From positions 1 through 37,882 of the forward strand of contig JAGFNJ010000052.1 of assembly GCA_017592775.1 (NCBI GenBank): a DNA stretch of 37,882 nt, written 5' to 3'. The position numbers and the translations under genes were made by a program. Positions 2,689-37,882 of the stretch are shown one piece after another. Position 1 is the stretch's first letter; each line of letters opens with the position of its first letter. This stretch comes from Candidatus Accumulibacter conexus. Its GTDB lineage: Bacteria; Pseudomonadota; Gammaproteobacteria; Burkholderiales; Rhodocyclaceae. Under the pieces are notes generated by a model that worked only from the letters and a program-made list of their open reading frames with translations, had not been told where the DNA came from and did not search any database.

Positions 2689-2895
2689 ATGTGGAAAGAC
2701 CCAATCGTTACAGAGACGCGCCAACTGAGAGAACAATACGCAAGCCAGTTCGCACACAATGCTGACGCCATCTTCCAGGACATTTTGCGGAGGCAGAGCA
2801 TGCCGGGAAAAAAACTCGTTTCATTCCAGCCACGCAAACCTGTCTTGGCTCCCATTGCAGCCCAGCCCGGAAGTCCAGGGGACCCTCCGCGATAA
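2689..2895 (+). CDS. Small partner protein of PIN toxin, module 2 (putative antitoxin)
   Basis: This 68-aa protein starts MWKDPIVTETRQLREQYASQ and continues with DAIFQDILRRQSMPGKKLVSF before a proline-rich tail. It is paralogous to the product of 1639-1845 and lies 3 nt behind the PIN gene, so the two are almost certainly cotranscribed. The N-terminal helix (R-x-x-R-E-Q-Y-A) and the D-x-I-F-x-D motif are the conserved parts. An antitoxin function is inferred from context. No helix-turn-helix or ribbon-helix-helix domain is recognised, so it may neutralise without binding DNA. It ends 27 nt before intron fragment copy 2. Confidence 0.65.
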   Translation: MWKDPIVTETRQLREQYASQFAHNADAIFQDILRRQSMPGKKLVSFQPRKPVLAPIAAQPGSPGDPPR

Positions 2896-2921
2896 AGCCG
2901 CGTCGCGCCCTTCAGTTCTAT

Positions 2922-3003
2922 GTGTGCGCCGGGGATGGCGCGTTACTTCATGGGTGCAAGTCCCATGGCCAGGTTGTGCCGCACCGGCGGTGCGTCGAAC
3001 CCC
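2922..3003 (+). ncRNA. Group II intron 5' end fragment (start of domain I), copy 2
   Basis: This is the same 82-nt element as at 2058-2139, in the same orientation, 864 nt further on, differing at 3 positions. It has the GUGYG-like start, the GGGTGCAAGTCCC hairpin and the CGCAC/GTGCG stem. The sequence continues CGAGCCGAAGGCAAGG, which also resembles domain I of bacterial introns, so more of the intron may be left here than in copy 1. The two copies bracket the intact PIN module as direct repeats. Confidence 0.65.
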
Positions 3004-3181
3004 GATGCGCCGAGCCGAAGGCAAGGAGAAGGGCAATTTCATGCTGAAATGGTCACAAACTCGTCAACCACACGGGGCAGGATGACGGCGCCGGTTTCAA
3101 GCAAGCCTCGCCGGTCGCTCTGACGCTGGCCCGGCGAGTCCGCCAGCCGGCGTCCTCCGAACTCAAGAAGGGATAGTTGAT

Positions 3182-4615
3182 ATGATGATCAGAAAAGGAT
3201 ATCTCGCCATCGCCCTGATGGTGGTCGGCAACGTCCACGCCGCCGACCTCACTCGGTTCGACAACTTTACGCCGCTGATCGGCAATCCGGCTGCCGGAAG
3301 CCTGCCGGAGAGCGCGCCGTTCAAGCTGTCGTCGCCGGCTTTCAGCCAGGTCGTCCTGGCCAATCGCAGCAACCAGAACCGGTTGGTTCCGGGTTCGAAC
3401 TCCGGCAGTTGGGACATGATCACGGCCAACGAAACAGGCGCCAATGCCGGCCGCTATCTGTTCATGCCCTTCGAAGCCGGATCCGCCGGCGTACAGCGGG
3501 TCGACCTGCGCGACAGCAATTACGACACCCGCACGGTGACCATCGTCGCTCCGGGGACACAGGGTTTCGCGTCTGGCGATGCTTCCCGGTGGACGCCCTG
3601 GGGCAGCTATCTGACTGCCGAGGAATCGTGGGGAACCGGCAGCAGCAAGGGTCGCCTGTTCGAGGTGACCAACGCGACCACCGCCGGGGCGAACGGCGGC
3701 AACCTCGTCCAGCGCTCGATCATCCCCCGCGTCTCGCATGAAGGCCTGGCCTTTGACAAGGACAACAACCTGTACTTCATCGACGAGTTGAACGGAGGCT
3801 CCCTCTACAAGTACGTTTCCGCCAAACCCGGTGCCGCCACCGGTGCCGACTTCTTCGCCAAAGGCCAGACCTTCGTCCTGAAGGTCGGCGCGGGCGGCCA
3901 GTCCGAGGGCAACAACGGCCCTGCGATTGCCGGTAGCGCCAGTTGGGTGGCGATCACCGACGCGAATGGAGGCCCGCTGGCGGGCATTTCCACCGTTCTG
4001 GCCGACGGGACCATTGATGGCCGGGCGACCGCCGACCATGCCGCCGTCTTGGGCACCGGCTACAATCGCCCAGAGGATCTGGAGATTCAGCAAGCACCCA
4101 GCGGCAGGCAGATTCTTTACTTCACCACCACCGACTCCGACAGCGACGGCAACAGCGCCAATGGGCGCGGTCGAATCTATTCCCTCGATCTGGCCTCGAA
4201 CGACGTCAGACTGGCTGCTGATGGCGGCACTCCGGACATGGCCACCGGCCTCGCGGTCGGCGGCACGTGGAGCAATCCGGACAACCTTGCCATCGATGCC
4301 AACGGCAACATCTACGGCATCGAGGACCAGGACGGCGGCCGAGCGGACATCTGGTTCCTGCAGGACATCGACAGGGATGGGGTCGCCGAGGCAGTCGGCA
4401 AGTGGGCCTCGCTGAGCACCCCCGGCGCCGAGCCCACCGGGCTGTACTTCGACCCCTTCAACCCCGACGTGGCGTACGTGAACGTCCAGCACCCGACAAG
4501 TGGCAACGACCTGCTGGTCCAGATCACTGCCGTTCCGGAGCCGGAGACTTGCAGCATGGTGCTGGCAGGTCTGGGCCTGCTGGGTGCCACGGCACGACGC
4601 TGCAGGCGCGCCTGA
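3182..4615 (+). CDS. PhoX-like (DUF839) exported phosphatase-type protein with PEP-CTERM tail
   Basis: This 477-aa secreted protein has a signal peptide (residues 1-20, cleavage near VHA-AD). Its body resembles the PhoX/DUF839 beta-propeller family: WTPWGSYLTAEESWG, HEGLAFDKDNNLYFIDELNGG, YNRPEDLEI, NPDNLAIDANGNIYGIEDQDGG. These acidic blade motifs fit Ca/Fe-binding alkaline phosphatases of the PhoX type. The C-terminus VPEPETCSMVLAGLGLLGATARRCRR is a PEP-CTERM sorting signal, so an exosortase elsewhere in the genome should process it. The ATG at 3182 follows AAGGGA. Typical PhoX proteins have a Tat signal; this one looks Sec-type, so the phosphatase activity is a family inference. Confidence 0.75.
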   Translation: MMIRKGYLAIALMVVGNVHAADLTRFDNFTPLIGNPAAGSLPESAPFKLSSPAFSQVVLANRSNQNRLVPGSNSGSWDMITANETGANAGRYLFMPFEAGSAGVQRVDLRDSNYDTRTVTIVAPGTQGFASGDASRWTPWGSYLTAEESWGTGSSKGRLFEVTNATTAGANGGNLVQRSIIPRVSHEGLAFDKDNNLYFIDELNGGSLYKYVSAKPGAATGADFFAKGQTFVLKVGAGGQSEGNNGPAIAGSASWVAITDANGGPLAGISTVLADGTIDGRATADHAAVLGTGYNRPEDLEIQQAPSGRQILYFTTTDSDSDGNSANGRGRIYSLDLASNDVRLAADGGTPDMATGLAVGGTWSNPDNLAIDANGNIYGIEDQDGGRADIWFLQDIDRDGVAEAVGKWASLSTPGAEPTGLYFDPFNPDVAYVNVQHPTSGNDLLVQITAVPEPETCSMVLAGLGLLGATARRCRRA

Positions 4616-5585: not shown

Positions 5586-7295
5586 ATGCACCGTTTCCTT
5601 TTCCTCGCAGCCATGCTGCTCTCCCTGCCTGCCCTGGCTGTCGTGCCGACCTTGCGCGCACCGGAGGACGTGCGTGCGTTGCTCGAGAGCCACCTCGAGA
5701 TCGGCGACGTCGCCGATCAGCCGGCCGAGGTCGCTTTCGCGCGCCGCATGCAGCGCGAGGTGGAGAAACTGCTGGCCACCGAGGGTTACTTCTCGCCGCG
5801 CGCCAGCCTGCGCCGCGACGGCGAGGAGTTGTTCCTCGAGGTCGATCCCGGAGCGCGTGCGCTGATCGGCAGCGTGCACATCGACATCAACGGAGCGGTC
5901 GACGCGGCACGGCGGCAGGAACTGGTCGACGGCTGGAAGCTGAAGGTCGGACAACCCTTCCGCCAGGCCGACTGGGACGAGGCCAAGGATTCGCTGCTCG
6001 CCGGCCTGCTGGCGGTCGACCATGCCGGTGCGCGCCTGCAGGAGACGAGCGCCGAAGTCGATCCCGAGGCGCTGCGGGTCGACCTGCTGCTGGTCGCCGA
6101 ACCGGGACCGCGCTATCGCTTCGGCGAGTTGCAGATCAGCGGCCTGCAGCGCTACCCGCCCGAGCTGGTGGCGCGCTTCAACCGCAGCGTCAAACCGGGC
6201 GACGCGTATCGCGAGGATCAGTTGCTGGCGCTGCAGGCTGCGCTGCAGAGCACGCCCTACTTCTCGTCGGTCAGCGTCGCGCTGCAGCGCAGCGATGCCG
6301 ACCGCGCGAGCGCCGCCGCGAACGACGGCTGGGTGCGTGCGCCGGTGCTGGTGCAGGTGCGCGAGCGCGCGCCGTACCAGATCACACTTGGCGCCGGTTA
6401 CAGCACCAACACCGGTGCGCGCGTCGAGGCCGGTTACCGCAGCAGCGATTTCCTCGGCCGTGCCTGGCAGTTGCAGACCGGGGTCCGCATCGAGCAGTTG
6501 CGGCAGTCCGGTTTCGCCGATGTCTTCTTTCCGCCGGACGAGCAGCAGCGGCGTGATGGCGTCGGCACCGTCATCGAGCACTCGGACATCGAGAACCTTG
6601 ATATCGAGCGTTTTGCCGTCGGCGTGATGCGCGTGCAGAAGCTGGGCAGCATCGAACAGCAGCTCGGCATCAACTGGCAGAACGAACGGCAGGCGCCGGA
6701 GGGTGCTGCGGCGACGACCAACCGCGCACTGACGGCGCAGGCCGGCTGGACCTGGCGGCATGCGGTCGATCCGCTCGACCCGGCCGAGGGGCTGTCGCTG
6801 CAGTTCCAGATCGGCGGTGGCAGCAAGCATCTCCTCTCCGACCAGAGCTTCGTCCGCACCTATCTGCGCTACAGCCAGGGCGTGCCGCTCGGAGCCCGCG
6901 ACGCGCTGCTCTTTCGCGGCGAACTCGGGGTGACCTTCGCCGAGTCGTCGCAGGGGATTCCGCAGGATTTCCTCTTTCGCACCGGTGGCAGCAACTCGGT
7001 GCGCGGCTACTCGTATCTCAGCCTCGGCGTGCCGCAGGGGTCGGCGATCGTCGGCGGCCGCTACCTGGCGACGCTGAGTGGCGAATACACGCACTGGCTC
7101 ACGCCCACTTGGGGGGCGGCCGTCTTCGTCGATGCCGGCAACGCGGTCGACGATCTGCAGGAGATGAGCCTGGCGGTCGGCTACGGGGTCGGCGCGCGCT
7201 GGCGCAGTCCGGCCGGGCCGCTCGGCATCGATGTCGCCTACGGCCAGCGTGACGGCTCGCTGCGGCTCGATTTTTCGCTGGCGATCCCGTTTTGA
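5586..7295 (+). CDS. tamA: Translocation and assembly module subunit TamA (Omp85 family)
   Basis: TamA is an outer-membrane BamA paralogue that works with TamB in delivering proteins and lipids to the outer membrane. The 569-aa product begins with a signal peptide (MHRFLFLAAMLLSLPALA). POTRA domains occupy roughly residues 25-265 (RYRFGELQISGLQRYPPELV is a typical POTRA start). The C-terminal 16-strand barrel follows, with YQITLGAGYSTNTGARVEAGY and the Omp85 signature GGSNSVRGYSYLSLG near residue 480. The last residues (LRLDFSLAIPF) end in an aromatic beta-signal. The ATG at 5586 is chosen because it begins the signal peptide; longer in-frame starts have no such sequence. tamB follows after 25 nt. 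Confidence 0.92.
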   Translation: MHRFLFLAAMLLSLPALAVVPTLRAPEDVRALLESHLEIGDVADQPAEVAFARRMQREVEKLLATEGYFSPRASLRRDGEELFLEVDPGARALIGSVHIDINGAVDAARRQELVDGWKLKVGQPFRQADWDEAKDSLLAGLLAVDHAGARLQETSAEVDPEALRVDLLLVAEPGPRYRFGELQISGLQRYPPELVARFNRSVKPGDAYREDQLLALQAALQSTPYFSSVSVALQRSDADRASAAANDGWVRAPVLVQVRERAPYQITLGAGYSTNTGARVEAGYRSSDFLGRAWQLQTGVRIEQLRQSGFADVFFPPDEQQRRDGVGTVIEHSDIENLDIERFAVGVMRVQKLGSIEQQLGINWQNERQAPEGAAATTNRALTAQAGWTWRHAVDPLDPAEGLSLQFQIGGGSKHLLSDQSFVRTYLRYSQGVPLGARDALLFRGELGVTFAESSQGIPQDFLFRTGGSNSVRGYSYLSLGVPQGSAIVGGRYLATLSGEYTHWLTPTWGAAVFVDAGNAVDDLQEMSLAVGYGVGARWRSPAGPLGIDVAYGQRDGSLRLDFSLAIPF

Positions 7296-7320
7296 ACGGC
7301 CGCAGCGAGGAGAGGCGACG

Positions 7321-10300
7321 ATGAACCGGGAGAGCAGCCTGCCGCCGCCCGCCACAGCGCCCGCGACCGACGCACCCCCGCCGCGCCGGCGGCGGCGCTG
7401 GCTGGCGCTGCTGGCCGTGTCGCTGATCGTGCTGACGGGTGGCGGCGCCGCGCTGCTGGGCAGCGAGAGCGGGCTGCGCCTGGCCTGCCTTCTGCTCGAG
7501 CGGCTCGCTGCCGGGCAGCTCGTCATCGCCGCGCCCAGCGGCACCCTGGCTTCGTCGTTCTCGTTGCCGTCGCTGCATTGGCGCAGCGCGACGCTCGATG
7601 TCCAGGTGCAGGAACTGCAGGTTGACTGGCGCCCGCTCGAGTTGCTGCGCGGTCGTCTGGCGGTCGGCCGCATCGCCGCCGACCGGCTGCGCGTCTCGCA
7701 GCTGGCGAACGACGACCCGGTCGTCCTGCCGGAGAGCCTCGATCTGCCGCTGGCGGTGGCCATCGAGCGACTCGAGATCGCCGTCATCGAGGTTGGCGAC
7801 CATGCCCATCCCGCCGGGACGGCGGCAACGATCGCCGAGTCGCTGGCGGCCGAGCTGGCGAGCGACGGTGCGCTGCATCGTCTGCTCGACCTGCATGCCC
7901 GGGTCGGCGGACTGGCAGTGAGCGGCGATGCTTCGCTGGCGGCGGCGAAACCGTTCGCACTCGTCGCCCGCGCCGCCATCGAAGGTGAAGCGGGCGGCCG
8001 CGCCCTCGCTTTCGACCTCGCCGCCGAGGGCCGGCTGGAGGAGTTTGCCGTGCACGGGGGCGCGCGACCGCTGGCAGCGGCGCCCGCCGACGGCTTCGTC
8101 GGCGAGGTCGATGCCCGCATCCTGCCCTTCGCGCCGCAGGTGCTCGGCGAGGCGGTGGCGCGGCTGTCCGGCGTCGATCCGGCGGCGTGGGTGGTCGGCG
8201 CGCCGCGTGCCGATCTCGAGCTGCGCCTCGAACTGCGGCCGCTGGGCGACTCGCCGACCGCTCTGAGCGGCCGCCTGCAGGCGGTGAACCATCGCCCGGG
8301 GACGATCGATCGCCAGTTGCTGCCGGTCGAGTCGCTGACCGCCGGCCTGGCACTGGCTGCCGACACACTGGAAATCGGCGACATCGATCTGCGCCTCGCC
8401 GGCGGCGGCCGCCTGCGCGGCAGCGGCGCGCTGCGTGCGTCGGAGCTCTCGCTGCGGCTCGCCGCCAGCGCGGTCGATGCCGGCGCGCTCTACGCCGGCC
8501 TGCAGCGAACGCGCCTCGCCGGCCCGTTGCGCGCCACGCTCGGGCTGCACCGGCAGGTGGTCGAGGGCGAGCTGCGCGATCCGCGCTTCGTACTCGAGAC
8601 CAGCCTGGCGATCGACCCCGAGCAGGTGGCCGTCGATCGACTGCGCCTCGCCAGCGGCGACGCAGACCTCGTTGCCAGTGGCAAGGTGGCGCTCACCGGC
8701 AATGGTCGCTTCGAACTCAAGGGGCAGCTCAGGGACTTCGATCCCCACCGCTTCGTCGCCAGCCTGCCGGCTGCCCGTCTCAATGCCGAAGTCTCTGCCA
8801 ACGGCAGCAGCAGGCCGCAGCTCAGCCTCGGGCTTGCCTTCCAGTTGCGCAACAGTCGCCTGGCCGGCGAGGTGCTGGCCGGCGGCGGCGCGATCGACCT
8901 GGCGCCGGACCACCTGCGCCGGGTCGATGTCGAACTGAGCGCCGGCGGCAACCGGCTGCTGGCGAAGGGCGCTTTCGGGGCGCCGGGCGAGCGGCTGCAG
9001 TTGAGCATCGCGGCGCCGCGGCTCGATCCGCTGGGTCCGACCGGCGACCTGGCGGGCGAGATCGTCGTCGGCGGCAGCTTTCGCGCGCCGGAAGTCTCCG
9101 CGACGCTGCAGTCGACGCGCCTGGCGCTGCGTGGCTTTGGCCAGTTGCGCGGACTCGATCTCGCTGGCCGCCTCGCCGGCGGCGACCAGGGCGCCGTCAG
9201 CGCGAAGCTGCGACTGGCCGCTATCGACCTCGCCGGCGGCGACACCGTCGTCACCGCGCTGCAGCTCGACGCCGACGGTGTGCGCAGTCGGCACCAGTTG
9301 CGCGCAGCTTTCGAGCTTGCCGGCCGGCGCACCGTCGAGCTGCTGCTCGCCGGCGGCTTCAAGCCACAGAGCCCGGCACCGGTATGGGTCGGCACGCTGC
9401 AGGAGGCCAGCTTGTCGCAGGCGGCCGGCCGGCAGCCGCCCTTCGTCCGTCTTGGCGCGGCGATGCCGTTGCAGCTCGCGGCGGGCCGCGTCGCTGCCGG
9501 GCCGGCCGAGTTCGTCGGCGCCGACTGGTCGGCGCGGCTGCAGCGCGCGAGCTACGACGCTGGCGCCTGGCAGACCGCCGGCAGCCTGCGGGCCTTGCCG
9601 GTGGCGGCGACGCTGGCCGAGTTCCCGGAGGTGTTTGCCGCCGTGGCGGCGGTGGTCAAGGGCAACGGCGAGCCGCTGCGCATCAACGGCGAGTGGGATC
9701 TCGGCAACGCCGGTCGCGCGCTGACTGCGCCGGCGGCGGGCAGGCGCTTGCCGAGCGGCAGCCTGCGACTGTGGCGCGACCGCGGCGACCTCTCGGTCGG
9801 CACCCTGCCGCTCGGCCTCGAGGAGGGCAGCCTCAGTCTGCTGGCGGCTGACGGCAAGCTCGACGGGCGCCTGCAACTGCGCGGCAAACGGCTCGGCGAG
9901 GTGAGCGGCGAACTCAGCGCGACGAGTTCCGCCGATACGCTGATCAACCGGCTGGCACCCTGGCGCGGACGTCTGCGGCTGAACATGCCGGATTTGGCGT
10001 GGGCGGGCCCGCTGCTCGGTGCCGGCTGGCAGCTCGGCGGCCAGTTGGCGGGCGAGGCGCGGCTCGACGGCAGCCCGGCACAGCCGCGCGTCAGCGGTGA
10101 CTGGCGCGGCGACGGCCTGGCGGTGCGGGCGCTCGACCAGGGCATGCGTCTCGAGCGCGGCAAGCTGTTGCTCGAGCTGGCGGTCGGCGCCGATGGCGCG
10201 CAGCGGTTGCTGCTCCGGGAACTGGCTTTCGACAGCGAGCTGCAGCCGCTGCCGCGCGTGCTGGCCGTCGCGCCGGGGACCGACGTCGCGGCCCTGACCG

Positions 10301-28151: not shown

Positions 28152-28246
28152 GTCGTGCGCGACTTTCGCGACGGCAGCGGCAATCCCGCGTCCTTGCCGG
28201 TGCACATCCATCCATCCTTCCTGCCTGTCCATTCGAGGAATTGACA

Positions 28247-31200
28247 ATGCCCACCCGTTCAGGTGTCCGATCCTACAGCCTGGTCACCGCTCCCGCCTAC
28301 GGCGTCACAGGAACCGGTCTCGACCAGATCGTTGAATACATCCATCGTGACCCCGGTCTGGCAGGGGCGAGCGATGGGAAGGACATCAAGGCGGGCGCCC
28401 AGGCAGCCAACAGCTTGAACCAACTGATCGTGCAGGCGGCCAAGGCGACGGGTGCTGCGGCTGACAAGGTGTTCACGGCTGCCGAAGTCAGCGCGATGAA
28501 CGCCTACCTGCGGAGCAATTTCCAGATGCAATGGACGTTGCTGCATGGCGATGACGAGGCGGGTTCGGAGACCGGTTTTCACCGGGTTCAGGATGATGGT
28601 GGAAGCACCCGGTATCGCGGCGAGAAACTGATCGACACGGTTGCAGACGGCCTCTACCACATGGGTTTCGAAATTCGCGATGCTCGTTTCCTCAACGAGG
28701 ACGGCGATCCGAATGCCTCGGTCGGGCAGGTGGCGGAATGGCTGACGCAGTTCTTCACCGATCACTCGACGAGTGGTACCGGGCTCGACAGGATCACCGA
28801 CCTGATCATGGCCGATGCCGGACTCGATCGCCGGACCAGCGACGCGCAGATCGCTGCCGGCGCCGATGCGGCCAATGGTCTCAACCTGATGCTGCGTGAC
28901 GCCCTGTCAGCGACCGGCGTCGCCCGCGATGAGTGGATTTCCGTTCAGGATGTCGTCGCCCTGAACAGATACCTGCGGGCGGACGCCGGGCGTCTCGCCG
29001 ACTGGACGCGCCTGCACGGGGACGACGAGAAGTGCCTGGAGACCGGTTTCCACAAGGTTCAGAACGATGGCGCGACGACGACCTTTTTTGGCGAGAACCT
29101 GGCGAACACCGTCGCCGACGGCATCTATCACCTCGGTTTCCAGATCAGGGACGGCCATCTCCTCAACGAGGACGGCGATCGCAACGCTTCGTTGTCGGAT
29201 GTCGCCGATTGGCTCAACTATTTCCTCACGGACGCATCCACTACGGGCACCGGCCTCGACCGCATCGTCGACCTGATCAAGAGCGATCGGGGCCTCGCGC
29301 GTCAAACCGAGGCGGGCGACATCAACCAGGGGGCAAAGGCCGCCGACGCGATGAACAGGATCATCGTCGACCTGATCGGCCGAACCGGCGCCCATGACGA
29401 CGGCTGGATCACGGTCGAAGAGCTGACCGAGATCAACCGCCTGCTTCGGGGCAACACGGCCTTGCTCAAGCGATGGACCGATCTGCACGGCGATGACGAA
29501 GGCGACCAAGTGAGTGGCTATCACTTTGTCCAGGGCAATGGCGCCACGACCAACTTCTTCGGCCGCAACCTCGTCGATACCGTTGGTGACGGCCTCTACC
29601 ACCTGGGTTTCGAGATCCGCGACGGTCGCTTCCTGAACGAGGATGGGGATGCCAATGCCGCGCTGACGGATGTCGCCACCTGGCTCAATTTCTTCTACGG
29701 GCAGGCGCCGATCATGCTCGGTGACGAGGCAGCCAACACGATCGATGGCGACGAGCGCGGTGAGCAGATCAACGCTGGCGGCGGCAACGACAGCATCTCC
29801 GCTGGCGCCGGCAACGATCTCGTCTACGGCGGCTGGGGAAGCGACCGCGTCCGGGGCGGTGACGGCAACGACCTGATCTACGGCGGTTCGGGCAACGACA
29901 GCCTGGAGGGTGGCTCTGGTGAAGACGTCTTCCGGGTCACCGGATCCGCCGGCTGTGGTCTTGAAGGCTACGACCGCTACGATGGTGGCGCCGGCACGGA
30001 CCGCATCGTCGCCTACGGTGGCAAGGTCGATATCGGTCTGGCGGCGTTCGGGCCGGCAAACAGTGTCGAGATCGTCGATGCCTCGGGCGCGAGCGGTGCG
30101 GTGCGCCTGCTCGGCGACTGGAACGACAACCTGCTCGACTTCAGCGCCACGTCCTTCGTCGGCAAGCTGAGCATCGATGGCGGTGGCGGCCGCGACACGA
30201 TCGTCGGCAGTGCCGGCGACGACCGTATCGACGGCGGCAGTTGGGGTGACCAGACGCTGTCGGGCGGCGAAGGCAACGACGTGCTGCACGGCGGGACGGG
30301 CACCGACAAACTCTCGGGCGGTGGCGGCGGCGACACCTTCCAGGTCACCGGCAACGTCGGCAGCGGTTTTGAAGGCTACGACCGCTACGATGGTGGCGCC
30401 GGCACGGACCGCATCGTCGCCTACGGTGGCAAGGTCGATATCGGTCTGGCGGCGTTCGGGCCGGCAAACAGTGTCGAGATCGTCGATGCCTCGGGCGCGA
30501 GCGGTGCGGTGCGCCTGCTCGGCGACTGGAACGACAACCTGCTCGACTTCAGCGCCACGTCCTTCGTCGGCAAGCTGAGCATCGATGGCGGTGGCGGCCG
30601 CGACACGATCGTCGGCAGTGCCGGCGACGACCGTATCGACGGCGGCAGTTGGGGTGACCAGACGCTGTCGGGCGGCGAAGGCAACGACGTGCTGCACGGC
30701 GGGACGGGCACCGACAAACTCTCGGGCGGTGGCGGCGGCGACACCTTCCAGGTCACCGGCAACGTCGGCAGCGGTTTTGAAGGCTACGACCGCTACGATG
30801 GTGGCGCCGGCACGGACCGCATCGTCGCCTACGGTGGCAAGGTCGATATCGGCCTGGCGGCGTTCGGGCCGGCAAACAGTGTCGAGATCGTCGATGCCTC
30901 GGGCGCGAGCGGCGCCGTGCGCCTGCTCGGCGACTGGAACGACAACCTGCTCGACTTCAGTGCCACATCCTTCGTCGGCAAGCTGAGCATCGACGGCGGT
31001 GGCGGCCGGGACACGATCATCGGCACGGCGGCCGACGATGTCATCGTTGGCGGCCATGGCGCGGATCGTCTCGACGGTCGTGGTGGCAACGATCGAATCA
31101 CCGGCGGAAGTGGTGCGGATACCTTCGTCTTCGGCAAGGCCTGGGGTCGCGATGTCGTTCGTGATGTCGTAACCGACTTCCAGGACGGGGTCGACCATCT

Positions 31201-31348
31201 CGATTTTCACGCTACGGGTCTTGCCGACTTCAAGAGCCTGAAGATCGTTGGCACCGGCAATGATGCGCTGATCAGCTGGAATGGCAACGAGGTGTTGCTG
31301 GTCGGGGTGCGGGCTGCCGATCTGGGTGCATCGGATTTCATCTTTTAA
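28247..31348 (+). CDS. Large RTX-type secreted protein with three ~155-aa N-terminal repeats
   Basis: This 1033-aa protein has no Sec signal. Residues about 22-175, 176-332 and 333-484 are three copies of an unrecognised domain. Each begins TGTGLD-x-I and contains LHGDDE, a V-x-DGLYHLGFEIRDGRFL stretch and a final NEDGD-x-NA loop that looks EF-hand/dockerin-like. RTX nonapeptides (GGxGxDxL-type) begin near residue 490. A 136-aa module then repeats from residue 573, twice identically and once partly. The end (SWNGNEVLLVGVRAADLGAS, then DFIF) is a typical type I secretion tail. It is probably exported by an ABC/HlyD/TolC system and folds on Ca2+ outside. The ATG at 28247 follows GAGGAA. Confidence 0.8.
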   Translation: MPTRSGVRSYSLVTAPAYGVTGTGLDQIVEYIHRDPGLAGASDGKDIKAGAQAANSLNQLIVQAAKATGAAADKVFTAAEVSAMNAYLRSNFQMQWTLLHGDDEAGSETGFHRVQDDGGSTRYRGEKLIDTVADGLYHMGFEIRDARFLNEDGDPNASVGQVAEWLTQFFTDHSTSGTGLDRITDLIMADAGLDRRTSDAQIAAGADAANGLNLMLRDALSATGVARDEWISVQDVVALNRYLRADAGRLADWTRLHGDDEKCLETGFHKVQNDGATTTFFGENLANTVADGIYHLGFQIRDGHLLNEDGDRNASLSDVADWLNYFLTDASTTGTGLDRIVDLIKSDRGLARQTEAGDINQGAKAADAMNRIIVDLIGRTGAHDDGWITVEELTEINRLLRGNTALLKRWTDLHGDDEGDQVSGYHFVQGNGATTNFFGRNLVDTVGDGLYHLGFEIRDGRFLNEDGDANAALTDVATWLNFFYGQAPIMLGDEAANTIDGDERGEQINAGGGNDSISAGAGNDLVYGGWGSDRVRGGDGNDLIYGGSGNDSLEGGSGEDVFRVTGSAGCGLEGYDRYDGGAGTDRIVAYGGKVDIGLAAFGPANSVEIVDASGASGAVRLLGDWNDNLLDFSATSFVGKLSIDGGGGRDTIVGSAGDDRIDGGSWGDQTLSGGEGNDVLHGGTGTDKLSGGGGGDTFQVTGNVGSGFEGYDRYDGGAGTDRIVAYGGKVDIGLAAFGPANSVEIVDASGASGAVRLLGDWNDNLLDFSATSFVGKLSIDGGGGRDTIVGSAGDDRIDGGSWGDQTLSGGEGNDVLHGGTGTDKLSGGGGGDTFQVTGNVGSGFEGYDRYDGGAGTDRIVAYGGKVDIGLAAFGPANSVEIVDASGASGAVRLLGDWNDNLLDFSATSFVGKLSIDGGGGRDTIIGTAADDVIVGGHGADRLDGRGGNDRITGGSGADTFVFGKAWGRDVVRDVVTDFQDGVDHLDFHATGLADFKSLKIVGTGNDALISWNGNEVLLVGVRAADLGASDFIF
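29963..31016 (+). repeat. Tandem 408-bp coding repeats (two full, one partial)
   Basis: Copy 1 is 29963-30370, copy 2 is 30371-30778 and copy 3 runs from 30779 to about 31016 before diverging. Copies 1 and 2 look identical at the nucleotide level; copy 3 has several silent changes. The period is a whole number of codons (136), so the frame is kept. Recent unequal crossing-over is likely, and copy number may be misassembled. Confidence 0.9.
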
Positions 31349-31617
31349 GCGGGTCGGCAGCCGCGGCGGCTCGCGTTCGGCGAGTAGAGGGGGCAGCGAG
31401 TTGTGGGGACCGCACATGAAATTTCCACCACTGCTCGCCGCGCCCCGTCGACTTCGTGATCGCGACGTTCCTGAGCCGGGAGTTCATTCAGTATCCTGCC
31501 GCCGAAATTCCGTCAGCGACCGAAGGCGTGGATGGCGGACCCCAGTCGAATAGCCCAGCAGAAATGCGCTGCCCGGGGTAAGCTTGCGCCGTTGCCAACG
31601 AGGGTGGATGGCGCGAC

Positions 31618-34422
31618 GTGGGCGCACCGGAAGAACAAGCAAGGGAGGAGATCGACCGCCTGCTGGCCGCTGCCGGCTGGGCGGTGCAGGACGTCGGCGC
31701 CGCCAACCTCCACGCTGCGCGTGGCGTCGCGCTGCGCGAGTTCGAGCTGAACGTCGGCCACGGCACCGCCGACTACCTGCTCTATGTCGGGGGCAGGGCT
31801 GCCGGCGTCATCGAAGCCAAGAAGGCGGGCGCCACGCTCAGCGGCGTCGAAGCGCAGTCGGTGCGCTATGCGCAAGGGTTGCCGGCCACGCTGCCGGCCT
31901 GGCTCCGACCGCTGCCGTTCCTCTACGAATCCACCGGGCTGGAGACACACTTCACCAACGGCCTCGATCCCGAGCCACGCGCCCGCGGCGTGTTCGCCTT
32001 CCATCGGCCGGAAACCCTGGCCGCCTGGTTGTCACCGTCCTTTCCGGCCGGGGAGGGCAGGGTGTCGGGGCCTCCACGCGCTGCAGACAACGCGGCGCTG
32101 ACCTACGCCTTGACCTTCCTCGCGCGCGTGCGCGCCATGCCGCCGCTGGTCACCGAGTGGTCCGACTGCAAGCTCTGGCCCGCGCAGATCACCGCCATCC
32201 GCAACCTGGAAGCCAGCCTCGCGCAGAACAAGCCGCGCGCGCTGATCCAGATGGCGACAGGCTCCGGCAAGACCTTCACCGCCATCAGCTTCATCTACCG
32301 GCTGATCAAGTTCGCCGGCGCGCGGCGTGTCCTGTTCCTGGTGGACCGCGGCAACCTCGGCCGGCAGGCCAGGAAGGAGTTCGACCAGTACGTCTCGCCC
32401 GTCAACAACTACAAGTTCGGCGAGGAGTTCATCGTCCAGCACCTCACCAGCAACCAGCTCGACAAGACGGCGCGCGTCTGCATCTGCACCATCCAGCGCA
32501 TGTATTCGATGCTCAAGGGCCGCGAGCTGCCGGAAGAAGCCGACGAGGAGTCCACCGAGCGCGTCGAGAGCCTGTTCAAGGAACCGGAGCCCATCGACTA
32601 CAACCCGGCGTTGCCGATCGAGACCTTCGACATCATCGTCACCGACGAGGCGCACCGCTCGATCTACAACCTGTGGCGGCAGGTGCTGGAGTACTTCGAC
32701 GCCCATCTGATCGGCCTGACCGCCACGCCCAACAAGCAGACCTTCGGCTTCTTCAACCAGAACCTGGTGATGGAGTACGGCCACCCGCAGGCGGTGGCCG
32801 ACGGCGTCAACGTCAACTACGACGTCTACCGCATCAGGACCGAGGTCACCGAAGCCGGCAGCACCGTGGAAGCCGGCTACTGGCTGCAGGTGCTGGACAA
32901 GCCCACCCGCGCCCGGCGCGACTGGCAGCTCGACGACGACTTCGAGTACGCGCCCGAAGAGCTGGACCGCAGCGTGCAGACGCCCGACCAGATCCGCACC
33001 ATCGCCCGCACGCTGCGTGACCGCTGGCAGAGCGACCTCTTTCCGCAGCGGCAGGAGCTGCCCAAGACGCTGGTGTTCGCCAAGGACGACAACCACGCCG
33101 AGGCCATCGTCGGCATCTTGCGCGAGGAGTGGGGCCGCGGCAACGAGTTCGCGCAGAAGATCACCTACCGCACCACGGGCAGCAAGCCGGAGGAGCTGAT
33201 CAAGGCCTTCCGCACCAGCTATTACCCGCGCATCGCCGTCACCGTCGACATGATCGCCACCGGCACCGACATCAAGCCGGTGGAGATCGTCGTCTTCATG
33301 CGCAGCGTGAAGAGCCGCAGCTTCTTCGAGCAGATGAAGGGCCGCGGCGTACGCGTCATCAAGGACGACGACCTGCGCGGCGTGAACCCGGGCGAGCACG
33401 TGCACAAGGACCGGTTCGTCATCGTCGACTGCGTGGGCGTGTGCGAGCGCGACAAGACCGACAGCCGGCCGATGGACCAGAAGAAGAGCGTGCCGCTGGC
33501 GGCGCTGCTGCAGGCCGTGAGCCTGGGCAACGTCGAGCCTGAGGTGCTCTCCAGCGTGGCCGTGCGCCTGGCGCGGCTGGACGCCCAACTCACCGACGCC
33601 GAGCGCGCCAGAGTGGTGAGCGAAGCCGGCGGCCTGGGCCTGAAAGAGCTCTCGCGCGGCATCGTGCAGGCGCTGGACCCGCGCGAAGACCGTTCGCCGC
33701 AGGAGGCCGAGGCGGCGCTGCGCAACGCCGTCAAGCCGCTCTCCAACCCCGCCCTGCGCACGCTGATCCTGACGCTGAAAACAATGAAGGAACTGGTGAT
33801 CGACACCGTCACGCAGGATCGTGTACTCGAAGCCGGCTTCTCCGAGGCCGCGCGCGAGCGCGCGCAGGGCATCGTGCAGAGCTTCGAAGCCTTCATCGCC
33901 CAGCACCGCGACGAGATCACCGCCCTGCAGATCCTCTACAACCGCCCGACCAAGGTGCCACTGAAGTTCGAAGACCTGAAGGCGCTGGCCGACACGCTGC
34001 AGGCCCCGCCGCATCTGTGGACCGAAAGCCAGCTCTGGCAGGCCTACGCCGCGCTCGACCAGACCAAGGGAGAGGGGAAAGTGCGGGGCGCGAGCCGCCG
34101 CCGTATCCTGACCGACCTGGTGTCACTGGTGCGCTACGCCATGCACCAAGAGAACGAACTGGTGCCGTACCCCGAGCGCGTAGCGGCCAACTTCAGGGCG
34201 TGGATGGCGCAGCAGCAGGGTTCAGGGAAGAGCTTCACCGACGAGCAGCGCTGGTGGCTGGAGAAAATGGCCGAGCACATCGCCAGCAACCTCGACATCG
34301 AGGCCGAGGACTTCGGCTACGCGCCCTTCGACCAGCGTGGTGGGCTGGGCAGGGTGCATCAGCTCTTCGGCACGGAGTTGCCGAAGGTGATCGATGAGTT
34401 TAATCGGGAGTTGGTGGCGTGA
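31618..34422 (+). CDS. hsdR: Type I restriction enzyme, R (endonuclease/translocase) subunit
   Basis: HsdR translocates DNA by ATP hydrolysis and cuts it away from the recognition site. The 934-aa product begins with a PD-(D/E)xK nuclease (D52 in GTADYLLY, E66-A-K68 in GVIEAKK). SF2 motor domains follow: Walker A MATGSGKT at residues 212-219, Walker B DEAH at 343-346, LIGLTATPNKQT, and the second RecA domain with TVDMIATGTDIKPVE and FFEQMKGRGVR. A C-terminal helical domain contacts the methylase. The start is GTG at 31618: an in-frame TAA lies at 31579 and there is no ATG or TTG between. It overlaps hsdS by 4 nt. Confidence 0.93.
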   Translation: MGAPEEQAREEIDRLLAAAGWAVQDVGAANLHAARGVALREFELNVGHGTADYLLYVGGRAAGVIEAKKAGATLSGVEAQSVRYAQGLPATLPAWLRPLPFLYESTGLETHFTNGLDPEPRARGVFAFHRPETLAAWLSPSFPAGEGRVSGPPRAADNAALTYALTFLARVRAMPPLVTEWSDCKLWPAQITAIRNLEASLAQNKPRALIQMATGSGKTFTAISFIYRLIKFAGARRVLFLVDRGNLGRQARKEFDQYVSPVNNYKFGEEFIVQHLTSNQLDKTARVCICTIQRMYSMLKGRELPEEADEESTERVESLFKEPEPIDYNPALPIETFDIIVTDEAHRSIYNLWRQVLEYFDAHLIGLTATPNKQTFGFFNQNLVMEYGHPQAVADGVNVNYDVYRIRTEVTEAGSTVEAGYWLQVLDKPTRARRDWQLDDDFEYAPEELDRSVQTPDQIRTIARTLRDRWQSDLFPQRQELPKTLVFAKDDNHAEAIVGILREEWGRGNEFAQKITYRTTGSKPEELIKAFRTSYYPRIAVTVDMIATGTDIKPVEIVVFMRSVKSRSFFEQMKGRGVRVIKDDDLRGVNPGEHVHKDRFVIVDCVGVCERDKTDSRPMDQKKSVPLAALLQAVSLGNVEPEVLSSVAVRLARLDAQLTDAERARVVSEAGGLGLKELSRGIVQALDPREDRSPQEAEAALRNAVKPLSNPALRTLILTLKTMKELVIDTVTQDRVLEAGFSEAARERAQGIVQSFEAFIAQHRDEITALQILYNRPTKVPLKFEDLKALADTLQAPPHLWTESQLWQAYAALDQTKGEGKVRGASRRRILTDLVSLVRYAMHQENELVPYPERVAANFRAWMAQQQGSGKSFTDEQRWWLEKMAEHIASNLDIEAEDFGYAPFDQRGGLGRVHQLFGTELPKVIDEFNRELVA

Positions 34423-35642
34423 GCGGCGCGACGATGACTCGCCTTCGCGACCTGGGCGACTGGCGCGGCGGAAACACTCCCCCGAAGGCCAACGCCGCCT
34501 ACTGGACCGACGGCACCGTCCCGTGGGTCTCACCGAAGGACATGAAGGTGGACGAGATCACCTCGTCCGAGGACCGAGTCTCAGAAGCTGCGCTGAAGGA
34601 GGGCCGTGTTTCGCTGGTGCCTGCGGGATCTGTGCTGGTTGTGACGCGCAGTGGCATCCTGTCGCACACGCTCCCGGTAGCAGTGACTAAGACTCAGGTC
34701 ACGATCAACCAAGACCTCAAGGCGCTGACTCCGAAGCCGGATGTTTCGCCGAAGTACGTTGCACATGCGCTGCGCGGAGCCAGTCGCCGCATCCTGAGGG
34801 AGTGCTCAAAGCACGGCACGACCGTTGCGTCGGTCGAGACCAGTGCATTACTGGACTTCGAGATTCCCCTCGTTGATCTGGACGAGCAGCGCCGGATCGT
34901 CGCCGAACTCGAAAAGCAGTTCTCCCGCCTCGACGAAGCCGTCGCCAACCTCCAGCGCGTCAAGGCCAACCTGCTCGCTTATAGGCAAGCAGCAGTGCGC
35001 GAGGCAATCTGGGGCCACCGGTTCGCGGAACCTTGGGCCGAGGATCTGCCTTCTGGTTGGTACAGGGCACCCCTATCCCAGCTGGGGCAGTTTGGGCGTG
35101 GCAAATCCAAACACCGCCCGCGCGGCGATCCGAGGCTCTTCGGAGGCCCATATCCGTTCATACAGACGGGGGACGTCCGACGGTCGGCTGGTGTGATCCG
35201 TGAATTCACACAGACGTATAGCGAGTTCGGGCTCCAGCAAAGCCGACTCTGGCCGGTCGGTACGCTTTGCATAACTATTGCAGCCAACATCGCCGAGACC
35301 GGCATTTTGGCGATGCCCGCTTGCTTTCCGGACAGCGTCGTCGGCTTCGTCTGTGAGGACGAGACACTGGTCCGGTACGTCGAACTCTTCTTCAGAACGA
35401 TTCGTGTCGACCTGGAGCGGCTCGCTCCTGCGACGGCGCAGAAGAATATCAACTTGGCTGTCTTGGAACGTCTTGAGGTGAAGGTCCCTCCGGCGCCGGA
35501 GCGCGAGCGCATCGTCGCCGAAGTCGACCGGCGCCTCTCCATCGTCCACGAAGTCGAGACCGAAGTCGACGCAAACTTGAGGCGCGCGGCTTTGCTTAGA
35601 TCAAGTTGTCTTGCGGCCTCGTTTTCGGCGGCTCCCATATGA
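34419..35642 (+). CDS. hsdS: Type I restriction-modification specificity subunit
   Basis: HsdS sets the bipartite DNA target for both methylation and cutting. The 407-aa product shows the usual order. TRD1 is at residues 5-150 (GDWRGGNTPPKANAAYWTDG, PWVSPKDM), with coiled-coil spacer CR1 around 160-205 (DEQRRIVAELEKQFSRLDEA, LLAYRQAAVREAIWG). TRD2 covers 215-350 (PFIQTGDVRRSAG). CR2 runs to the end (ERERIVAEVDRRLSIVHEVE). The GTG at 34419 overlaps the hsdR stop (GTGA), so the two are coupled; an ATG at 34434 is an alternative. The second half is visibly less GC-rich than hsdR, in line with shuffling of recognition domains. Confidence 0.92.
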   Translation: MSGATMTRLRDLGDWRGGNTPPKANAAYWTDGTVPWVSPKDMKVDEITSSEDRVSEAALKEGRVSLVPAGSVLVVTRSGILSHTLPVAVTKTQVTINQDLKALTPKPDVSPKYVAHALRGASRRILRECSKHGTTVASVETSALLDFEIPLVDLDEQRRIVAELEKQFSRLDEAVANLQRVKANLLAYRQAAVREAIWGHRFAEPWAEDLPSGWYRAPLSQLGQFGRGKSKHRPRGDPRLFGGPYPFIQTGDVRRSAGVIREFTQTYSEFGLQQSRLWPVGTLCITIAANIAETGILAMPACFPDSVVGFVCEDETLVRYVELFFRTIRVDLERLAPATAQKNINLAVLERLEVKVPPAPERERIVAEVDRRLSIVHEVETEVDANLRRAALLRSSCLAASFSAAPI

Positions 35643-35683
35643 GCAAGACCTGAACAAATGTAGAAAAGAGAGGAGGCAGCAGA

Positions 35684-37663
35684 TTGAAGCCTGTTCGTGC
35701 GTTTGTTGGTCACAGCTTTACCCCTGACGATGCTGTGTTAGTCGCCCCCTTTCTAAAGTACTTGACCGCAATATCGGAGATGCATCCGTCTTTCTCTTGG
35801 GAACACGCCGAGCGGGCGGAGCCGATGGTTATCGACGAGAAGGTTCTTCGGCTCTTCGCCGACAAGACTCTGTTCATCGCCATCTGTACCAGAAAGGAGC
35901 GGGTGATTTCGCCCGATGCACTTGGCCAGTCATTTTTTTTGCCGAATCGGTTCATTGCTGTCCAAGCTGCGTTCGCTTGGAAGACCTCGGACTGGATCAT
36001 TCAGGAGATTGGTCTAGCAATAGGGCTCGGACTCCCGGTAATACTCCTTGTCGAAGACGGCGTCCGGTCTCCGGGCGGATTGCAGGGCAATCTCGAGTGC
36101 ATCGCCTTTTCTCGTAGTTCGCCAGAGAGATCATTTCCAAAGCTGGCCGAGATGATTGCGACCCTCTCCCCTAGATCTAAGGCTCTGCAGGAGTCGACGG
36201 AAGCGCCGGCCGTTGCCGCTTCTCAGGGGCGGTTAGAGACCGAGGCGCCGCTGCCAGAGAACGCCTGGGCGAATCCGAGTCCGACTTGGAGCCGCCGCCA
36301 ATTCGATTTCGCCTTTATTAGCTTTGTGGCAATCGCTGACGAGGTCAATGCTAAGCGAATATCGGACGCGTTTCTCGCCTCTGATATTGGAGGTGATGCC
36401 GAAAGCAGGCAGACTTGGGTGGCCGACTGCGAGTGGGCCCGCATTGCCCTCGACAAGGGTGGCAAGCTTCAGCGCCTGGTGACACTTGCTGCCGAACATC
36501 CGGCCAACTCCGGCGTTGGTGAGACACTCGGGCGTGGTTTTCTGCATTACGGGGAGTACTCAAAGTCCGCAGACGCCTTTGAGCAAGCGGCGGTCAACGC
36601 CACGGATGCGCGACATGTAATTCGATTGCTGAAGGAATCCGCACTAGCAGCGCAGAAAGGGGGCGATGGAGCTCGTGCGCTGAAGATGACTGATCGCATG
36701 AGGCAGTTGGCCCAGGAAGCGGCGACCGGGTACGAAAGCATCTTGGAAGCAGAGCGCATGCTTGCCGAACTGCGAAAGGAAGACGACGTTCAGATCGCCA
36801 CCTTAGAGCGCTTACTTGAGATATCGCCAGACGATGCGGAAAAGCGATTCGCGCTGGCGTACAAGTACTCCGAACTAGAAAGGAATGATCTGGCGGCACT
36901 GCATTACTCGCGCATCCCGCTCGGTGAACGAACGGGTGTTACTTGGAACAACTTTGCTGTTTCGCTTGACCGACTGGGTATGCCGGGGAAGGCCGTCACC
37001 TCTTACCGACGCGCTGAGGAACTAGGCGAAACGCTGGCAATGAGCAATCTTGCCAACAAGCTAACGGAGTTCGGGTTCTTGTGTGAGGCACGGGCAATCC
37101 TTGAAGCCGCGATTGCCGTAAAGGATCATCACAAGAACGTGGATTCCTCGCTCAACCGACTGAAGGACCTGCCGGAAGACGAGAGCAGAAAGGAAGCGGA
37201 GGTCATCGAGCAAGCGAAACCGATCAGCGATTTCTACCGGGCGTTCGGAGAGGCCTTGATGAGGCCACTGCCGGCGGTTCTCGCGGACACATGGCGGGGC
37301 CCCGACTGTCCGTTGGAATTCAACGTGGAGGATGGGAGGCTTGTTGCGCGTGGCCAGTACGAACGGGCTCAAGGTGGGCTGCTCTTGGCGATGATGAGCC
37401 ACGAGGGCTTCGCGGGTAAGACTGATGCTGCTCCGTTGCGCTTTCGTGTTGAGTACGTGGCGACGGCAAGAGGTAGCGCCTTGGTGGGGCAAGTCAAGCG
37501 CTTCCGCGAGGGCGAGGTTCTGAAAGGAGCGGCTGCAACCTTTCTTGCGCAGGAGGAGGCTCCCCAGATCTTGATGGTCGTTAGTGCGGATGGCAGGTTG
37601 ATCCGTGTCCTCGAGAGAAGCAAGAACACTAGCCAGCGCACCTATGAGTTCAAAGCGGCCTAA
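35684..37663 (+). CDS. TIR-like domain protein with TPR-like repeats, inside the R-M operon
   Basis: This 659-aa protein is of no recognised named family. Residues 4-150 look like a TIR/TIR-like fold: first strand VRAFVGHSF, a second strand TLFIAICTR, SDWIIQEIGLAIGLGLPVIL with E108 in the place of the catalytic glutamate of TIR NADases, and a final strand near LECIAFSRS. Residues about 265-500 form helical pairs of TPR type (GRGFLHYGEYSKSADAFEQA, AEKRFALAYKYSELE, WNNFAVSLDRLGMPGKAVTS). The C-terminal 130 residues are unassigned. The TTG start follows a perfect AGGAGG at 7 nt; the next ATG would remove the first TIR strand. The gene is less GC-rich than hsdR. NADase activity is inferred. Confidence 0.65.
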   Translation: MKPVRAFVGHSFTPDDAVLVAPFLKYLTAISEMHPSFSWEHAERAEPMVIDEKVLRLFADKTLFIAICTRKERVISPDALGQSFFLPNRFIAVQAAFAWKTSDWIIQEIGLAIGLGLPVILLVEDGVRSPGGLQGNLECIAFSRSSPERSFPKLAEMIATLSPRSKALQESTEAPAVAASQGRLETEAPLPENAWANPSPTWSRRQFDFAFISFVAIADEVNAKRISDAFLASDIGGDAESRQTWVADCEWARIALDKGGKLQRLVTLAAEHPANSGVGETLGRGFLHYGEYSKSADAFEQAAVNATDARHVIRLLKESALAAQKGGDGARALKMTDRMRQLAQEAATGYESILEAERMLAELRKEDDVQIATLERLLEISPDDAEKRFALAYKYSELERNDLAALHYSRIPLGERTGVTWNNFAVSLDRLGMPGKAVTSYRRAEELGETLAMSNLANKLTEFGFLCEARAILEAAIAVKDHHKNVDSSLNRLKDLPEDESRKEAEVIEQAKPISDFYRAFGEALMRPLPAVLADTWRGPDCPLEFNVEDGRLVARGQYERAQGGLLLAMMSHEGFAGKTDAAPLRFRVEYVATARGSALVGQVKRFREGEVLKGAAATFLAQEEAPQILMVVSADGRLIRVLERSKNTSQRTYEFKAA

Positions 37664-37705
37664 GTGCCGACGTTCTGCGAAAAGACGCCGATTGGATGAT
37701 CCTGT

Positions 37706-37882
37706 TTGAACACCACCACCCTGGTTCATAAGCTCTGGAACTACTGCAACGTCCTGCGCGACGACGGCATGAGCTACGGCGACCACGTCGAGCAGCTCAC
37801 CTACCTGCTGTTCCTGAAGATGGCCGACGAGCGCAGCCGTCCGCCATACGACCAGGCCAGTCCCATCCCCGCGCCCTACGCC
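37706..37882 (+). CDS. hsdM: Type I restriction-modification methylase subunit, N-terminus (cut by window end)
   Basis: The frame from TTG at 37706 runs open to the window edge (59 codons): MNTTTLVHKLWNYCNVLRDD, GMSYGDHVEQLTYLLFLKMA, DERSRPPYDQ. This is the HsdM N-terminal helical domain, which normally precedes the SAM-dependent adenine methylase with its NPPF motif (outside the window). An in-frame TGA at 37697 rules out an earlier start, and no ATG lies before residue 22. It begins 42 nt after the TIR/TPR gene. The operon order is therefore hsdR-hsdS-X-hsdM. Confidence 0.85.
   Translation, partial: MNTTTLVHKLWNYCNVLRDDGMSYGDHVEQLTYLLFLKMADERSRPPYDQASPIPAPYA

Follow-up and report, generated by a model that had tools for sequence, protein, structure and literature searches.

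The contig JAGFNJ010000052.1 of Candidatus Accumulibacter conexus (assembly GCA_017592775.1), analyzed here over its full 37,882 nucleotides (nt) and referred to as the window, ends in a type I restriction-modification (R-M) operon in which a gene that we call T is located between hsdS and hsdM. We have found that T belongs to a family of proteins with a TIR-like N-terminal domain, a TPR superhelix and a C-terminal beta domain. It is probably a self-contained TIR-TPR abortive-infection protein, the TIR-like domain of which would cleave NAD+ or a related nucleotide, and which would be carried as exchangeable cargo in the slot between hsdS and hsdM. The family is an immediate candidate for an anti-phage system consisting of one gene, and the contents of the slot bear on a question raised by PrrC, i.e., whether suicide genes embedded in R-M operons guard the enzyme or merely share its promoter.

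A preliminary description of this DNA had reported a type I R-M operon with a 659-aa gene between hsdS and hsdM, on the same strand, with small gaps and its own Shine-Dalgarno sequence. All of this was confirmed: the coordinates and the GAGGAGG motif are as given in Table 1, hsdS and T are separated by 41 nt and T is separated by 42 nt from the hsdM start codon (TTG), and Pfam recognizes hsdR, hsdS and the HsdM_N domain. T is a genuine gene and no chance open reading frame (ORF) because relatives that are 30–49% identical to it over long stretches (the 15 long rows of alignment A4) share its start position. Upstream, hsdR and hsdS overlap by 4 nt. The window is the entire contig and hsdM is thus cut after 59 codons; a search of the rest of the same assembly did not find the remainder. 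The window HsdR is 61.6% identical to that of a T-bearing operon of Nitrosomonas, and the 59-aa start of hsdM is 68% identical to the Nitrosomonas HsdM. The GC content and the GC at third codon positions are 57.5 and 64% in T, 62 and 73% in hsdS, 67 and 92% in hsdR, and 63 and 91.5% in the start of hsdM, T being the poorest in GC and hsdS intermediate. A sigma-70-type scan of positions 31300–37882 gave no promoter-like site, and seven terminator-like sites were found there (5.0 expected by chance), none of them on the plus strand within the hsdS-T or T-hsdM gap. The R-M operon gives T a position and probably also a transcript.

Scans of the genome and viral contig collections with the whole T protein gave no relatives, and neither did tblastn against plasmids and phages. 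An alignment of the N-domain (A3) retrieved 22 loci from the genome contigs and had no match in the viral contigs, among which the family alignment (A5) found a single one (L082). The window, the 22 loci and L082 make up the family set of 24 members; the search required the peptide WKTSDWI or AFVGHSFT and covers members carrying either one. Besides the window, 15 members are full length, with 647–664 aa from the start of the match (L014–L021, L023, L027, L028, L030–L032 and L082); the reading frame of L013 is still open at the contig end, and the copies in L022, L024, L025, L026, L029, L033 and L034 are incomplete (truncated, split or partial). Judging by the genomes searched, the family is rare yet widely spread. 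Relatives were found in 4 of the 369 genomes of the class sample; these include the own genome, and two of them are of the distant L004/L005 type described below. The N-domain profile retrieved 2 of the 398 phylum-sample genomes (again counting the own one), and the own genome was the sole carrier among the 61 genomes of the family sample. The phyla, as labelled in the records, are Pseudomonadota, Nitrospirota, Nitrospinota, Thermodesulfobacteriota, Bacteroidota and Chloroflexi, most records being metagenome-assembled genomes (MAGs). The sole Bacteroidota member is possibly a wrongly binned contig, given its closeness to a Chromatiales member. Broken copies were also seen. In a Bradyrhizobium MAG (L009:1539-2336 and 2714-3548) a CAP12-type TIR gene lies directly upstream of a frame-broken T copy, and another contig of this MAG (L074) contains the C-terminal part of a T gene. 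In L003:2-1441 the T copy is cut after TSDWIIQE, with transposase-like ORFs (IS3 type by eye) beside the break.

The predicted model of the N-domain has the alternating alpha/beta fold of the TIR/N-glycosidase type. It bears out the TIR-like order of strands and helices that had been read from the sequence, and E108, the residue of the TSDWIIQE motif pointed out at that time, is invariant in 22/22 rows of A5 and is the candidate catalytic Glu of T. In TIR domains the catalytic Glu is located in the helix of a WxxxE-like motif; the TIRs of SARM1 and STING have such a Glu, and those of CAP12/Pycsar systems have NADase activity. The CAP12/Pycsar TIR appears as the nearest sequence family of the T N-domain. 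Its profile PF10137 (CAP12-PCTIR_TIR) matches 8 of 22 family members at E<=1 (best 8.9e-4; the score of one member was 12.6 vs. a cut-off of 24.7), and hhalign aligned E108 with the Glu of the CAP12-type TIR that neighbors the Bradyrhizobium T copy. In the window T, the Pfam scan gave no match to PF10137 or to any other TIR family, and the six PDB sequences matched by the N-domain profile, all of them weakly (E 0.22 or worse), do not include a TIR.

The modelled fold is common to DNPH1 and NDT as well, and enzymes of the DNPH1/MilB type are nucleotide N-glycosidases. The N-domain could be one of these, destroying (deoxy)nucleotides during infection and having no NADase activity. We consider this unlikely, since the sequence affinity goes to the CAP12/Pycsar TIR family, the alignment by hhalign sets E108 on the Glu of a TIR of that type, and the DNPH1 and NDT families are not among the eight families obtained in the Pfam scan of 22 members. 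The second match of the N-domain model in Foldseek was EcThsB, which would suit a protein that makes a signalling nucleotide, like ThsB of Thoeris, or one that is a catalytically dead scaffold. Either is very improbable: the Glu and the surrounding motif are strictly kept, and in the selection of neighbors that was scanned most members do not share any one partner gene, Fic (L017, L020) and AlbA_2 (L016, L082) being the only ones seen twice. When the four operon proteins were scanned with PADLOC profiles, ThsA, the partner gene of Thoeris, was absent among the matches listed (up to 25 for hsdS).

In the full-length model the N-domain is followed by an eight-hairpin TPR superhelix and then by the beta domain. 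The TPR-like helices of the preliminary description are thus present as a modelled superhelix, but the Pfam TPR matches of the window T are all below the cut-off (best E 0.021, 15.4 bits vs. 27). No Pfam match of T passes its cut-off, the NCBIfam matches are weak and mostly to TPR-type proteins, and none of the PADLOC defence families (2023) matches T at E<=1. The fold of the C-terminal beta domain was not named, the full-length structure searches being dominated by TPR and similar repeat proteins. Its profile weakly matches two distant relatives, L004 and L005, in the first of which TPR_19 passes the Pfam cut-off. L004:1081-2715 and L005:697-2370 keep the TPR-beta part, with the TIR-like domain replaced by a different, hydrophobic-looking N-terminus, and no hsd genes were found near either of them. 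A 19-residue Kyte-Doolittle scan does not show a membrane anchor in these N-termini, the values being 1.61 and 1.44 vs. 2.21 for T itself, where the maximum falls inside the TIR-like domain. Another candidate from the C-terminal profile search, L075, was discarded as an ordinary TPR protein by its sequence. We propose that the TPR superhelix and the C-terminal beta domain would be the sensor, keeping the TIR-like domain inactive. An infection signal, probably a phage protein or nucleic acid, would make T assemble, and in the assembled protein the TIR-like domain with E108 would cleave the N-glycosidic bond of NAD+ (or of a related nucleotide), stopping the cell.

As the preliminary description had suggested looking for, the arrangement recurs: T is located directly after hsdS in other genomes, mostly with hsdM or its start behind. 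The hsd genes or their remnants adjoin 7 of the 24 members (window, L014, L016, L017, L018, L020 and L022), or 8 with the doubtful L025, left out of the seven because it was based on one match to an hsdS tail (E 0.009). The gene order is R-S-T-M in Nitrosomonas communis (L014), R-S-T followed by a Schlafen AlbA_2 gene and the contig end in Rhodoferax (L016), R-S-T followed by an hsdM-like start, Fic and hsdM in two frames in a Chromatiales member (L017), and S-T-start of M up to the contig end in L018. In the two Nitrospirota loci (L020 and L022) hsdS is reduced to a tail upstream of T, and L020 has two hsdM-start remnants around a Fic gene.

Such a position is what would be expected if T were a guard in the style of PrrC, binding HsdS, HsdM or the assembled enzyme, silent while this is whole and firing once a phage anti-restriction factor disables it. 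T directly follows hsdS or an hsdS tail in the seven loci, in L016 and L018 there is a 4-nt overlap between its start and the hsdS stop, and PrrC provides a precedent (PMC3506569, PMC12707154). Against it, no hsd gene was found beside 16 of the 24 members (17 counting L025) when the hsd proteins of these operons served as blastp and tblastn queries; one of the 16, L082, was judged from the ORF list, and in five (L013, L026, L029, L033 and L034) one flank is short, absent or broken. In a 19-row tree, linkage to R-M changes five times, four of the changes being forced by well-supported branches, and the count is also five when the L025 and L026 pieces are added. Shuffled labels gave a mean of 5.9 changes and 149 of 500 shuffles were as low, i.e., the observed five are no fewer than by chance. 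A single clade of the seven linked rows was rejected (p-AU 1.3e-16, on a tree with flagged long branches). Therefore, T seems to have moved into or out of R-M operons on several occasions, and the original proposal of a dedicated module of the R-M system, which had named homologues mostly outside R-M loci as its own test, is not sustained. The trigger put forward in it, R-M inhibition or lost methylation, finds no support in these data.

Housekeeping-type genes are found near several stand-alone copies (fumarase-type lyase and mannosyltransferase genes around L015, Mur ligase and SurA-like genes around L028), as would be the case for a non-defence regulatory TPR protein that is in the operon by chance. 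This is hardly probable at all, with integrases near L019 (together with a D5-type primase) and near L023, the patchy occurrence indicated by the phylum sample and the defence-type genes that otherwise fill the slot. A full-length T was also found in the IMG/VR contig (L082:2049-8501), amid AlbA_2, AAA-TIR_2 and 8xMP membrane protein genes, a block that looks like phage-borne defence cargo.

To see what else occupies this place, the window HsdR was compared with 274 genomes of the class, 20 of which (own genome included) had a match at E<=1e-150, and the regions downstream of hsdR were examined for 18 of the 19 other genomes, some ORFs between hsdS and hsdM remaining unscanned. Twelve regions have both hsdS and hsdM visible (fragmentary in L056 and L059), and in 12/12 a different defence-type gene is located between them (Table 1), the defence role being putative and assigned by family name. 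In the other six (L055, L057, L058, L062, L063 and L068) hsdM was not visible. None of the 18 regions contains T, nor had any ORF T as its best match. We can thus reject both that T belongs to every such operon (0/18 relatives of hsdR carry it) and that the position is peculiar to T. Within this sample, the constant is the place, not any particular gene. For this HsdR group there is a simple rule to find further defence genes, namely to inspect the content between hsdS and hsdM. In L062:4664-6197, on a contig ending before hsdM, hsdS is directly followed by a TIR_2 gene, by another one that matches the remainder of the PADLOC Aga_TIR profiles and by the start of a prokaryotic Argonaute gene. 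This set looks like a short Argonaute system that is located within a type I R-M operon and has its TIR encoded separately.

Some slot contents resemble complete systems with their own sensors (the CBASS-type pair of L061), which argues for cargo rather than for a guard. Together with the linkage data this makes a dedicated guard role for T less likely, and we regard it as rather unlikely. RloC, however, with 8/72 copies located in type I or III loci (PMC2610378), shows that a functional tie is compatible with loose linkage. There are also traces of how the cargo could be replaced. In L020:10963-12120 two diverged hsdM-start remnants flank the Fic gene, and in L017:10959-12271 an hsdM-like start (by eye) precedes Fic, with a longer hsdM behind. 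These repeated hsdM 5' ends suggest cargo exchange through recombination between hsdM genes. A bolder version would combine both ideas: T as the TIR counterpart of PrrC, sensing the HsdS/HsdM complex via its TPR and beta domains and destroying NAD+ once this complex is disabled, with stand-alone copies guarding R-M enzymes in trans and the slot as a general, recombination-fed dock where the R-M promoter is rented to suicide systems. We hold this to be distinctly unlikely. In the reading that we prefer, of a self-contained abortive-infection protein, T would be slot cargo in this genome, read through from the R-M promoter, and the operon would combine cutting as a first line with suicide as a second one.

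The coordinates are collected in Table 1. At 28241-31348 of the window, the ORF list has a large protein whose glycine/aspartate-rich repeats include near-identical blocks of ~136 residues.

Table 1. Features of the T-bearing operon of the window, and genes found in the hsdS-hsdM slot of related operons (locus handles).
Feature	Position	Strand	Description
hsdR	31618..34422	+	934 aa, GTG start; Pfam EcoEI_R_C 3e-43, ResIII 1.3e-36
hsdS	34419..35642	+	407 aa; Pfam Methylase_S in two stretches, 8e-25
Shine-Dalgarno-like GAGGAGG	35670..35676	+	ends 7 nt upstream of the T start codon
gene T	35684..37663	+	659 aa, TTG start; TIR-like, TPR and beta domains; relatives known
TIR/N-glycosidase-like domain of T	35684..36169	+	residues 1-162
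E108 codon of T	36005..36007	+	candidate catalytic Glu within TSDWIIQE
eight helical hairpins of T (TPR superhelix, 204-477) and long helix (484-526)	36293..37261	+	
C-terminal beta-rich domain of T	37289..37660	+	residues 536-659; model and weak profile match to L004/L005
hsdM start	37706..37882	+	TTG start, truncated by contig end; HsdM_N 1.9e-8 on the 59 residues present
L056 slot			AbiEii-type
L059 slot			OLD/AAA_15
L060, L070 slots			Schlafen AlbA_2
L061 slot	6147-8118		patatin (phospholipase effector) and CD-NTase, a CBASS-type pair
L064 slot			NucS_C/DUF5655
L065 slot			GmrSD
L066 slot			Fic
L067 slot			macro domain/DarG
L069 slot			AAA_21 and a gene with PtuB- and PDC-type matches
L071 slot			ParA/AAA_16 of the PADLOC candidate PDC-M28C
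L072 slot			Abi_2

Defence genes embedded in type I operons are already known, and on the T family we found no paper (preprints and most subscription papers were outside the scope of the search, and Payne et al. 2024 on embedded defences, cited in PMC12255303, may contain it). A TIR gene between hsd genes is not described in the available parts of PMC3710099, where TIR domains fused to AbiJ N-terminal domains were published, or in those of PMC6963756 and PMC10286901, and a word search found "TIR" absent from PMC3506569, PMC12707154 and PMC12255303. The arrangement as such had been taken for undescribed, and here the preliminary description has to be corrected: in PrrC, the mlo genes, DarTG2 and TgvAB, the literature already has cases of suicide genes, defence genes or additional ORFs located within type I operons. 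Toxins of the HEPN, Sir2, ParB and restriction endonuclease-fold types also occur in type I and III loci (PMC3506569).

T resembles the CAP12/Pycsar-type TIR effectors (PF10137) in the fold of the N-domain, in a partial profile similarity and in the position of a Glu within the helix. Unlike in those systems, the scan of the four operon proteins revealed neither a cyclase nor STING, and the sensor part of T would be formed by TPR and beta domains. It differs from the short Argonaute systems of the SPARTA/TIR-APAZ type in having its own TPR and beta domains and no Argonaute, and hhalign found no sequence similarity to their TIR. With PrrC, a suicide nuclease within the EcoprrI type I operon that, together with PARIS, has been described as a guardian (PMC12707154), T shares the location of a suicide-type gene inside an hsd operon. 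However, PrrC is an NTPase-regulated anticodon nuclease (PMC3506569), whereas T has no ATPase domain detectable by Pfam, and its association with hsd genes is partial, being kept in 7/24 members. The mlo genes, M-linked ORFs that are a feature of the hsd loci of Campylobacter jejuni (PMC5183652), are located in exactly the same slot as T, between hsdS and hsdM. As for embedded cargo, T has the traits of a separable and putatively defensive gene between hsd genes, i.e., its position, the copies without hsd genes and the contents of the slot in related operons. Further parallels are DarTG2, in the type I operon of the RRDM island of enteropathogenic Escherichia coli (EPEC), an island that protects against phage (PMC12255303), and TgvAB, in VPI-2 of Vibrio cholerae, for which phage protection was shown (PMC11411939). 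Each is an entire defence system within a type I operon, although at another position (hsdS-hsdR and hsdR-hsdS, respectively), and neither of them is a TIR protein.
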